The notes beneath the pieces were generated by a model. It made no database searches. It saw only the letters and a list, made by a program, of their open reading frames with translations, and was not told the origin of the DNA. A program made the translations under genes and the position numbers. From a virus: DNA of 30,185 nucleotides. This document shows positions 3,282 through 16,913 of this stretch, piece after piece. Numbering within the stretch: position 1 is the first letter of the stretch; each line of letters starts with the position of its first letter. The stretch is from positions 1-30,185 of IMG/VR virus record IMGVR_UViG_3300031521_000274; one strand, given 5' to 3'.

Positions 3282-3310
3282 TTGCGGAAGCCTACAAACG
3301 GTGCTATACT
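3282..3310 (+). promoter_or_regulatory. Sigma70/HrdB-type promoter of the reductase gene
   Basis: TTGCGG (3282-3287) and TATACT (3305-3310) are separated by exactly 17 bp, and TGC directly before TATACT makes it also an extended -10. This is the only gap element with a recognisable -35 box, so it is the best promoter in the window. Transcription should start near 3317, a few bases before the hairpin at 3322. It gives the reductase its own transcript, independent of the upstream fibre genes. Confidence 0.7.
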
Positions 3311-3321
3311 CGTAGAACACA

Positions 3322-3339
3322 GGGACTCTTCGGAGTCCC
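3322..3339 (+). promoter_or_regulatory. UUCG-capped hairpin in the reductase leader
   Basis: GGGACTC-TTCG-GAGTCCC is a perfect 7-bp stem closed by the very stable C(UUCG)G tetraloop. It begins about 5 nt after the predicted start of transcription from the promoter at 3282-3310. The sequence after it (ATGTTTGTC) has no U-tract, so intrinsic termination is unlikely. A 5' mRNA-stabilising cap or translational control are the more likely roles. The ribosome binding site AGGGG (3353-3357) is outside the stem, 3 nt from the ATG. Confidence 0.6.
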
Positions 3340-3360
3340 ATGTTTGTCAGTTAGGGGAAA

Positions 3361-12606: not shown

Positions 12607-12622
12607 TAGATATTCGTTAAGA

Positions 12623-12648
12623 GGGGGTAGCTTCGGCTGCCCCCTTTT
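12623..12648 (+). terminator. Intrinsic terminator after the major capsid gene
   Basis: GGGGGTAGC (12623-12631), loop TTCG, GCTGCCCCC (12636-12644), then TTTT (12645-12648). The stem is 9 bp with one G-U pair, closed by a C(UUCG)G loop. The U-tract is short, so some read-through is expected. It separates the head-shell unit from the neck and tail units and would leave capsid mRNA in excess. Two -10-like elements follow directly. Confidence 0.85.
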
Positions 12649-12652
12649 CGCG

Positions 12653-12666
12653 TATAATGGTACAAT
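12653..12666 (+). promoter_or_regulatory. Tandem -10 elements after the capsid terminator
   Basis: TATAAT (12653-12658) and TGGTACAAT (12658-12666) overlap by one base. The second matches the recurring TGNTAYAMT element. Transcription would start near 12665 or 12673, at or just before the AAGGAGG ribosome binding site (12673-12679) of the next gene. A promoter directly after a terminator is the expected way to restart the neck and tail operon. Confidence 0.55.
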
Positions 12667-12683
12667 GTATCGAAGGAGGATTT

Positions 12684-14960: not shown

Positions 14961-15459
14961 TAGTGTAGAACCTATCCATGTTGTGAACAAGTATCTTTGG
15001 AGTAAGTTCAAGGAAGAAATTGCTGCGGGTACAACTGCCGAAAAGGCAAGGTACAACTATGGAACACTTATCCCCATCTTCCCAGTAAACGACTCTACGT
15101 CTGGTGATGCAAAGTGGATCAATCGACCATACTTTGTGTACACAGAAGCATTTAGGGTTACCCATGGACTATATGTGATGAAGAAGTCCACCTTCGTTTA
15201 CAGCCTCAAGGCAAACGTTGATGACCATCTTGGTTGGGCAGCATTGCTCCAAAGAACGCTTGACCGTCAGGACGACGCCGCAGCAGACGTAAATGATTAC
15301 AACTTGATGCTAAAAGAAACAAGGCCAGCAGAATACTGCCCAGTAATCTTTCATTCATTCCGTGTTTATCAGAATGAGCCAGCCAAGCCTAGTGGCTCTG
15401 TATCCACTCCCGCAGTAACTGCACACTTTATGGTCGTTGCAGAATACCATTTGATATGA
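14950..15459 (+). CDS. Probable tail terminator (tail-tube completion) protein
   Basis: 169 residues from ATG 14950, preceded by GGGTGG (14939-14944) at 5 nt. A GTG at 14941 is less likely. It is a mixed alpha-beta protein: a helical start (IHVVNKYLWSKFKEEIAAG), strands with IPIFPVNDSTSGD and PYFVYTEAFRVTHGLYVM, a helix ALLQRTLDRQDDAAADVND, and a final paired strand (AVTAHFMVVAEYHLI). Size, layout and position right before the tail tube fit tail terminators that cap the head-proximal end of the tube. The last codons contain the left arm of an 8-bp repeat whose right arm holds the next promoter element. Confidence 0.6.
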   Translation: MLIDSVEPIHVVNKYLWSKFKEEIAAGTTAEKARYNYGTLIPIFPVNDSTSGDAKWINRPYFVYTEAFRVTHGLYVMKKSTFVYSLKANVDDHLGWAALLQRTLDRQDDAAADVNDYNLMLKETRPAEYCPVIFHSFRVYQNEPAKPSGSVSTPAVTAHFMVVAEYHLI

Positions 15460-15465
15460 AACCAA

Positions 15466-15474
15466 TGGTATACT
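15466..15474 (+). promoter_or_regulatory. Extended -10 element TGGTATACT before the tail-tube gene
   Basis: TGG plus TATACT lies 47 nt before ATG 15522. It overlaps the right arm (15464-15471, AATGGTAT) of a perfect 8-bp inverted repeat whose left arm ATACCATT (15444-15451) is inside the preceding gene. Transcription would start near 15481, giving a 41-nt leader, the second longest of the gap promoters. No -35 box is seen. Confidence 0.5.
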
Positions 15475-15518
15475 TCTAATTGAGGAAACGCCCATAAACT
15501 TATATTAGAAAGAGGTGA
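15474..15518 (+). promoter_or_regulatory. Leader dyad and ribosome binding site of the tail-tube gene
   Basis: TTCTAAT (15474-15480) and ATTAGAA (15504-15510) form a 7-bp inverted repeat with a 23-nt loop. The right arm ends where the ribosome binding site AGAGGTGA (15511-15518) starts. The site is an excellent match and lies 3-5 nt from ATG 15522. Because the predicted transcription start is inside or just after the left arm, only read-through mRNA would carry the full stem. Confidence 0.4.
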
Positions 15519-15521
15519 CAC

Positions 15522-16115
15522 ATGGCTTATACCCGTGGAGACTCCAAGAAGATTATCGTTGGTGCCGCTGCCCTATTCGTTTTCGAAGCGGGCGAGATGG
15601 CAGCAGCCGATCTTCCAACTTGGGTCGCAGCAACAAAGGCAGTAGATACACTCTCTGCCGACGCAGATTTCCGTAACGTTGGATTCACGTCCAACGGTCT
15701 TGAGCTTACAGTTCAGCCAGACTTCGGTGAAGTTAAGGTTGACCAGCTACTTGACGTTGCCAAGCTTTTCAAGCAGGGTATGCAGGTAACACTTAAGACA
15801 ACCCTTGCAGAAGCAAGCCTAGAAAACTTGGTTCTTGCAATCGCAGCTAATGATGCCGACCTTGTGTCCGGTACTCTTAACCTTAAGTCAGGTGAACTAG
15901 GAGACGCTCCAATCGAGCGTGGAATTATCGCAGTTGGCCCCGGTCCACAGACAGTTCCAACAGAGCGCGTCTACGCAGCTTACCGTGCATTGTCCATGGA
16001 CAGTGTTACAATTAGCGCAAAGCGTGACGAAGCTTCTCAGTTCGACGTGTCTTTCCGTATGCTTCCAGACAACACAGGAGCCTATGGAAAGGTCATTGAC
16101 AGGGTTCTTTCCTGA
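15522..16115 (+). CDS. Major tail (tube) protein
   Basis: 197 residues. It is the subunit that stacks in rings around the tape measure to form the tail tube. The N terminus (YTRGDSKKIIVGAAALFVFE) and a beta-sandwich pattern with VGFTSNGLELTVQPDFGEVK, GMQVTLKTTLAEASLENLVL (the tube-protein helix), and DSVTISAKRDEASQFDVSFR and a final strand (GAYGKVIDRVLS) fit the siphovirus major tail fold. It has its own promoter-like element and an excellent ribosome binding site. It is followed by a structured 93-bp gap and then the frameshifted chaperones, the classic order tube-chaperone-tape measure. Confidence 0.87.
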   Translation: MAYTRGDSKKIIVGAAALFVFEAGEMAAADLPTWVAATKAVDTLSADADFRNVGFTSNGLELTVQPDFGEVKVDQLLDVAKLFKQGMQVTLKTTLAEASLENLVLAIAANDADLVSGTLNLKSGELGDAPIERGIIAVGPGPQTVPTERVYAAYRALSMDSVTISAKRDEASQFDVSFRMLPDNTGAYGKVIDRVLS

Positions 16116-16122
16116 TCAGTGC

Positions 16123-16198
16123 CAAATAGCTGAATACGATGGTCTGCTCTCTATGGAGGGCAGGCCATTGTGCTATACTTTTGCTATTCAGCTATTTG
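16123..16198 (+). other. 76-nt two-tier hairpin between tail tube and chaperone genes
   Basis: The outer stem is a perfect 14-bp inverted repeat: CAAATAGCTGAATA (16123-16136) with TATTCAGCTATTTG (16185-16198). Directly inside it, 16137-16151 pairs with 16156-16170 (15 bp, three G-U pairs, loop TATG). The only unpaired part besides the loop is 16171-16184, which contains TGCTATACT. The right outer arm ends at the base before the ribosome binding site AAAGGAA (16199-16205). It could be a processing or attenuation site for tail-tube mRNA, or a DNA element controlling the promoter in its bulge. The inner stem lacks a proper U-tract, so a plain terminator is less likely. Confidence 0.7.
16171..16179 (+). 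promoter_or_regulatory. Extended -10 element TGCTATACT before the tail chaperone gene
   Basis: TGC plus TATACT is the same nonamer as in the reductase promoter. It occupies the bulge of the 76-nt hairpin. Transcription would begin near 16186, at the start of the right outer arm, so promoter-initiated mRNA lacks the hairpin while read-through mRNA contains it. No good -35 is seen (CTATGG at 17 bp). Confidence 0.5.
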
Positions 16199-16208
16199 AA
16201 AGGAAACC

Positions 16209-16514
16209 ATGGCTACAAGTGTGTACGAGACCGAAACTCTAGAATTAGCAGACGGTCTAACAGTCGAGATGCGACCATTGAAGATCGCAGGACTACGAAA
16301 GTTCATGAAAGAGTTCGGCAAGCTAGAAGCTGTGCAGGACGATAACGACAAGTCGTTCGACGTGTTGACCGCGTGTGTAGTCCTTGCACTCAAGCAGTAC
16401 AAGGAAGAAATCGCAAACAAGGTATGGGTTGAGGACAATCTAGACCTCAACAACTATTACGAAATCATCAAGGCTGCGGCAGGCATTGACATGCGTGCTG
16501 TGGGAAACGTGTAA
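16209..16514 (+). CDS. Tail assembly chaperone, short (G-like) form
   Basis: 101 residues, ATG preceded by AAAGGAA (16199-16205). The N-terminal beta part (YETETLELADGLTVEMRPL) and helices (IAGLRKFMKEFGKLEAVQD, DVLTACVVLALKQYKEEIAN) fit G-type chaperones, which coat the tape measure and recruit tube protein and are absent from the finished virion. The gene ends GTG-GGA-AAC-GTG-TAA, with a slippery GGGAAAC two codons before the stop, so a fraction of ribosomes go on into the next frame. Confidence 0.88.
   Translation: MATSVYETETLELADGLTVEMRPLKIAGLRKFMKEFGKLEAVQDDNDKSFDVLTACVVLALKQYKEEIANKVWVEDNLDLNNYYEIIKAAAGIDMRAVGNV
16502..16508 (+). other. Programmed -1 ribosomal frameshift site GGGAAAC
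   Basis: In the chaperone frame the bases read G-GGA-AAC, a canonical X-XXY-YYZ heptamer. After a -1 slip the tRNAs re-pair as GGG and AAA, and translation goes on from 16508 with CGT-GTA-AGC into an open frame that ends at 16882. The zero-frame stop TAA (16512-16514) is only one codon further. No strong downstream hairpin is obvious by eye. Confidence 0.88.
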
Positions 16515-16882: not shown

Positions 16883-16888
16883 CCTATC

Positions 16889-16897
16889 TGATATAAT
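16889..16897 (+). promoter_or_regulatory. Extended -10 element TGATATAAT before the tape measure gene
   Basis: TGA plus the consensus TATAAT lies 16 nt before ATG 16914. CCTATC (16883-16888) and GATAGG (16902-16907) form a 6-bp inverted repeat around it, and the right arm overlaps the ribosome binding site AGGAG (16905-16909). A transcript started near 16904 would lack the left arm and leave the site free. Read-through mRNA could partly hide it. No -35 box is seen. Confidence 0.5.
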
Positions 16898-16913
16898 CAT
16901 TGATAGGAGAAAT

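Follow-up and report, generated by a model that had tools for sequence, protein, structure and literature searches.

A promoter-carrying nested hairpin between the tail-tube and tail assembly chaperone genes of a putative actinobacterial phage, and a candidate role in insulating the chaperone from read-through

Translational hairpins that carry an internal late promoter are known from genes e, soc, 49 and I-TevI of phage T4, and also from segB and mobE. In the case of T4 e and I-TevI, the proximal late promoter gives rise to a short RNA that lacks the 5' arm of the hairpin and is therefore free for translation (PMC3014915, PMC2988022). A very stable hairpin has also been predicted directly upstream of a free ribosome binding site in seg43(25) of Aeromonas phage 25 (PMC2988022), and Cluster K mycobacteriophages contain ESAS, 17-bp imperfect inverted repeats located just upstream of the ribosome binding site (PMC3203893). 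ESAS occur in several copies per genome, mostly with a spacer of 4-13 bp, and are tied to a 13-bp SAS motif.

The hairpin considered here lies at positions 16123-16198 of a 30,185-base virus record (the whole stretch of DNA analysed, henceforth referred to as the window), which holds a siphophage-type tail module consisting of a capsid-family protein, a tail-tube protein, two chaperone frames and a tape measure protein, and also a ribonucleotide reductase. The tube stop codon is 7 nt 5' of the outer stem of the hairpin. The named relatives of the tube and chaperone proteins are all from Streptomyces phages, the annotated ones that we opened being Stanwilliamsviridae, and from this kinship we infer that the host of the window virus is actinobacterial. 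In addition to the match listed below, the tube protein matched Pfam Phage_TTP_17 just under the cut-off. The features of the locus are as follows:

15522-16115, plus strand: tail-tube (major tail) protein gene (PHROG 2175 Ig-domain protein, E 7e-32; homologues annotated as major tail protein)
16123-16136, plus strand: left arm of the outer stem, CAAATAGCTGAATA, present only on RNA started upstream (pairing, and paired changes in two lineages)
16137-16151, plus strand: left side of the inner stem, a terminator-type hairpin (equivalent hairpin in relatives)
16156-16170, plus strand: right side of the inner stem, with no clean U-tract directly after it
16171-16179, plus strand: extended -10 promoter TGCTATACT, located in the bulge (most relatives have it at the corresponding position)
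16185-16198, plus strand: right arm of the outer stem, TATTCAGCTATTTG, and predicted 5' leader of the promoter-started chaperone RNA (start from the -10 spacing)
16199-16204, plus strand: Shine-Dalgarno sequence AAAGGA, outside the hairpin (sequence; unpaired probability)
16209-16514, plus strand: tail assembly chaperone gene, first frame (PHROG 10504, unnamed there; Streptomyces phage homologues annotated as tail assembly chaperone)

A first-pass annotation had described the hairpin as a perfect 14-bp outer stem abutting a 15-bp inner stem, with a single 14-nt bulge that carries a promoter, and both direct complementarity and RNAfold bear this out. The outer arms are complementary at 14 of 14 positions; the inner stem contains 15 pairs, three of which are G-U, and is closed by the loop UAUG; the only bulge (16171-16184) is TGCTATACTTTTGC, in the interior of which RNAfold places one extra, weak 2-bp pairing. 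The predicted energy of the hairpin is -41.2 kcal/mol compared to a shuffle mean of -16.3 (z -9.1), none of 200 shuffles was as good, and no 90-nt stretch elsewhere in the 30 kb folds more strongly. Under a first-order Markov model, 0.01 perfect 14-bp inverted repeats with up to 120 nt between the arms are expected per window; one is observed. This expectation and the z value together lead us to reject a chance origin of the hairpin, and the reading as a repeated element is rejected because the hairpin is single-copy within the window. No Rfam family scored above the gathering threshold in the window and 14 related loci, and no tRNA-related identity was found for the hairpin.

The -10 hexamer (16174-16179) lies between the two outer arms. 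Judging from its spacing, we infer that the chaperone RNA starts at about 16185-16187, inside the right arm. Since the promoter is 3' of the left arm and the right arm forms the chaperone leader, the outer stem is limited to read-through RNA and, given this predicted start, RNA from the bulge promoter cannot form it; the geometry thus supports the distinction between the two RNAs that had been drawn in the first-pass annotation. In this respect the hairpin is like the T4 type, where the promoter is likewise placed so that only upstream-started RNA holds both arms (the start here being predicted at ~16186). In contrast to the T4 type, where the Shine-Dalgarno sequence or the AUG is inside the helix, the Shine-Dalgarno sequence here is outside: as had been noted, the right arm, with its last base at 16198, stops one base short of AAGGA (16200-16204), and the chaperone ATG follows at 16209. 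Furthermore, the T4 hairpins obey an early-versus-late logic, whereas here a terminator-type hairpin is nested in the structure, the promoter has the look of a host sigma-70 promoter and both genes are tail genes. The Shine-Dalgarno core (16200-16204) had an unpaired probability of 0.6-1.0 in all folds tried. Sequestration of the Shine-Dalgarno sequence or of the AUG is not supported, as the former is mostly unpaired in both RNAs and the latter is outside the hairpin; predicted AUG accessibility did not cleanly separate read-through from promoter-started RNA. The promoter-started RNA has no special structure (z -0.4), and a weak 6-bp pairing between the right arm and the start codon of this short RNA was set aside, being not kept in the L002 sequence. 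Because sequestration is not found, we do not class the hairpin as a member of the T4 type, although its mode of action would be analogous.

In anatomy, the seg43(25) hairpin comes closest, its ribosome binding site likewise being just outside the stem. Unlike the window hairpin, however, it belongs to a homing endonuclease gene, has no nested terminator described and comes from an unrelated phage. Compared to ESAS, the window hairpin is present in one copy, has 48 nt between its outer arms and lacks SAS, and is not counted among them. The statement in the first-pass annotation that no named element has this design was nevertheless too strong, since a promoter within a hairpin is known from T4 e and I-TevI (PMC3014915, PMC2988022).

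We then compared the junction, defined as the sequence from the tube stop codon to the chaperone start, across contigs (80 loci with a tube relative, and 44 and 44 loci with a chaperone relative) and Streptomyces phages; some junctions, which had been read one gene too far downstream into the tape-measure gap, were left out. In nearly all sampled junctions, the tube stop codon is followed by a GC-rich terminator-like hairpin, then by a TATAAT/TATACT-like hexamer, mostly preceded by an extended G or TG in the relatives, and then by the chaperone start. Every member of the Stanwilliamsviridae that we examined shares this order of terminator-like hairpin and -10 promoter at the junction. Since hairpin and -10 recur in nearly all relatives, the inner stem is, as judged by sequence, the terminator-type hairpin of the clade and the bulge carries the chaperone promoter; in other words, inner stem and bulge promoter are the local form of an ordinary, family-wide terminator-promoter cassette, which the first-pass annotation had missed. 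In keeping with a terminator, a stable hairpin lies shortly 3' of the tube stop codon in the window and in the relatives, and TGCTATACT conforms to the extended -10 form of sigma-70 promoters (TGnTATAAT-like). The tail after the inner stem, UGCUAUACUUUU, passes a loose terminator scan with its U run late; in the relatives, UUUCU or UUUU is the usual sequence. The -10 region stands in place of the U-rich tract after the stem in both the window and L088, and the efficiency of termination is therefore uncertain. The locus is thus like phage intrinsic terminator-then-promoter junctions in its inner stem and -10, as in the relatives, and unlike them in that the outer stem spans both terminator and promoter and in this replacement of the U-rich tract (window and L088). 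In many freshwater-type contigs, including L005, only ~6 nt separate the -10 hexamer from the chaperone ATG and these contain no Shine-Dalgarno sequence, which suggests that their chaperone mRNA is leaderless. Elsewhere in the window, at 12616-12670, a strong hairpin with TTTT and a TATAAT-like sequence lie in this order between the capsid-family gene and the next gene, a junction of the same type.

The outer stem is much rarer. It is carried by the window and by six IMG/VR contigs with two distinct sequences, which makes three distinct sequences: the window itself, a first lineage of L083/L085/L087 (contigs of L088-L090) and a second lineage of L082/L084/L086 (contigs of L002-L004). Searches of IMG/VR, two by pattern and two by chaperone, returned the same six contigs only. 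Two looser-pattern matches in the genome collection (L132 and L133) were taken as chance, and L132, on inspection, has no such structure. The tube proteins of the three outer-stem lineages are 73-84% identical in amino acid sequence. In each lineage the outer stem is significant (5, 11 and 2 of 20,000 shuffles reach the two-segment pairing energy), and none of the other parsed junctions (n=43) has comparable pairing, the next best being -11.4 kcal/mol, which is reached by 21% of shuffles. Compensatory arm changes in relatives, which the first-pass annotation had named as a check, are present: three outer-stem pairs are changed on both sides (C-G to G-C, A-U to U-A and A-U to G-C). L088 has one G-U intermediate and one broken end pair, and L002 has one broken pair (C-A). 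Overall, 95% of the outer-stem alignment cells are paired, compared to 19-55% when the partner is slid, and a covariation shuffle control on the three sequences was reached by 22 of 500. With only three sequences and this control, the covariation evidence for selection on outer-stem pairing is good but not overwhelming. In the inner stems, the sequence is rewritten between lineages and the pairing is kept. From these comparisons, the outer stem appears as an unusual addition to the cassette that is conserved in a small clade.

We considered how such an addition might act at the junction. To build a tail, tube protein is presumably required in far larger amounts than chaperone. Tube transcription would meet the inner hairpin, which would protect the 3' end of the tube RNA and end part of the transcription, and the chaperone gene would be transcribed from an extended -10 promoter of its own, immediately 3' of the hairpin, from which RNA would start in the right arm with an open leader. 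Polymerases that read through would produce an RNA in which the left arm is paired to the chaperone leader, yielding a 29-pair hairpin that stops one base before the Shine-Dalgarno sequence. The little free standby RNA left for the ribosome would lower chaperone initiation on the read-through RNA, and chaperone output would then track its own promoter and not tube transcription. In the standby-site model, a hairpin that is tall and leaves hardly any free RNA on its downstream side is strongly penalised (PMC3936740). Applied to this locus, the equations of the model give a penalty of 4.6-7.9 kcal/mol on the read-through RNA after optimal partial unfolding and of 0 for the short leader. Converted with a scale factor beta of 0.45, this corresponds to ~8- to 35-fold weaker modelled initiation on the read-through RNA, in a model fitted to E. 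coli and applied to a family of actinobacterial type. Ribosomes that terminate at the tube stop codon, which is 7 nt 5' of the stem, could unwind the stem base and relieve part of the penalty. A terminator-promoter cassette with an outer stem that senses read-through and insulates chaperone translation from it is the reading that we tentatively prefer, at a little short of an even chance; against insulation are the uncovered Shine-Dalgarno sequence, the count of three distinct sequences and the family at large, which does without the outer stem. We are more doubtful about the wider proposal that one nested RNA fold serves at once as a terminator, as the carrier of the promoter and as a translational insulator specific to read-through, with the origin of the message, and not a ligand or protein, deciding whether the leader is buried beside an uncovered Shine-Dalgarno sequence. 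If true, the phage packs a transcription stop, a restart and translational insulation from read-through into ~80 bases, and the T4 principle would hold also in phages of actinobacterial type and for structural genes, with the ribosome binding site left uncovered. The locus would also provide a natural phage test case for whether a tall hairpin beside a free Shine-Dalgarno sequence represses, a question left open by seg43(25).

The absence of the outer stem from most relatives, which have the same gene order and promoter, and its restriction to three carrier lineages would also be expected if the locus were a simple terminator-promoter junction, in which the inner hairpin and promoter matter and the outer stem is a lineage accident (e.g. 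a template-switched arm) of little effect. We consider this unlikely, given that 14 perfect pairs by chance amount to ~0.01 per window and that the paired changes are kept across lineages only 73-84% identical in the tube protein. The same rarity counts against a role in RNA processing and stability, in which host RNase III would cut the read-through duplex to yield a 3'-protected tube mRNA and a short-leader chaperone mRNA, with any translational effect being secondary. Although the 14 and 15 pairs are stacked as one long, sense-strand-specific duplex, and the L002 arms are still paired despite sequence change, the broad family has a single terminator-type hairpin only, so a long duplex is not generally needed, and the bulge breaks one strand at mid-duplex; processing of this kind therefore seems to us distinctly unlikely.

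The match of left and right arms within each lineage, and the position of the right arm, at which the chaperone RNA is predicted to begin, would suit an action in trans, whereby the free left arm on tube RNA that ended at the inner hairpin pairs with the leaders of separate chaperone mRNAs beside the Shine-Dalgarno sequence and so tunes chaperone to the level of tube mRNA. This is improbable: pairing in cis would win on read-through RNA, and the arms are not privately tuned, the L002 left arm pairing even better with the window right arm (-25.3). The first-pass annotation had also raised a DNA cruciform that exposes or masks the promoter. The arms do enclose the -10, and single-stranded DNA can fold in this way (-22.5), but in each of the three lineages the sense RNA forms a more stable fold than the antisense (-41.2/-28.8, -38.7/-28.4 and -39.6/-33.9), the G-U pairs of the inner stem becoming A-C mismatches on the other strand, and the bulge is asymmetric. 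A cruciform is thus disfavoured, and a DNA-level element of any kind, whether the repeat extrudes or binds a regulator, strikes us as highly improbable.

Other promoters and leaders in the window were also inspected. In the tube leader (TTGAGGAAACGCCCATAAAC, 15467-15500), the -10 of the tube promoter is closely followed by GAGGAA, at the predicted 5' end of the tube mRNA. Of 93 distinct tube leaders, 89 have GAGGAA in this position, often as GAGGAAAC, and they span freshwater-type contigs and Streptomyces phages; in the latter the motif runs on as GTGCCTAGCCAGCAC, a small hairpin with the loop CUAGCCA. The motif matched no Rfam family and is a candidate conserved leader element. In many relatives, short inverted repeats flank the tube promoter (15440-15510 in the window), e.g. 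AAAAGGGCT ... AGCCCTTTT or AATAGGC ... GCCTATT. Own-arm pairing there beats swapped arms (0 of 5000 permutations, among related sequences of which a few rows, the window's own included, were mis-parsed), and RNAalifold gave no consensus stem across relatives, so that we draw no conclusion from this pairing. The tape-measure promoter TGATATAAT (16883-16905) is enclosed by CCTATC/GATAGG with the right arm overlapping the Shine-Dalgarno sequence, a small T4-like arrangement; this enclosure is found in the window and L088/L140 and is not general, as judged from 10 distinct loci (permutation 0.91). At 16502-16514, just 5' of the first chaperone stop, GGGAAAC is kept in L088 and L002 and is consistent with the -1 frameshift by which two tail-chaperone frames are known to be joined. 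Finally, at 3303-3350, an extended -10 and then a TTCG-loop leader hairpin (GGGACTCTTCGGAGTCCC) precede the start of the ribonucleotide reductase gene.
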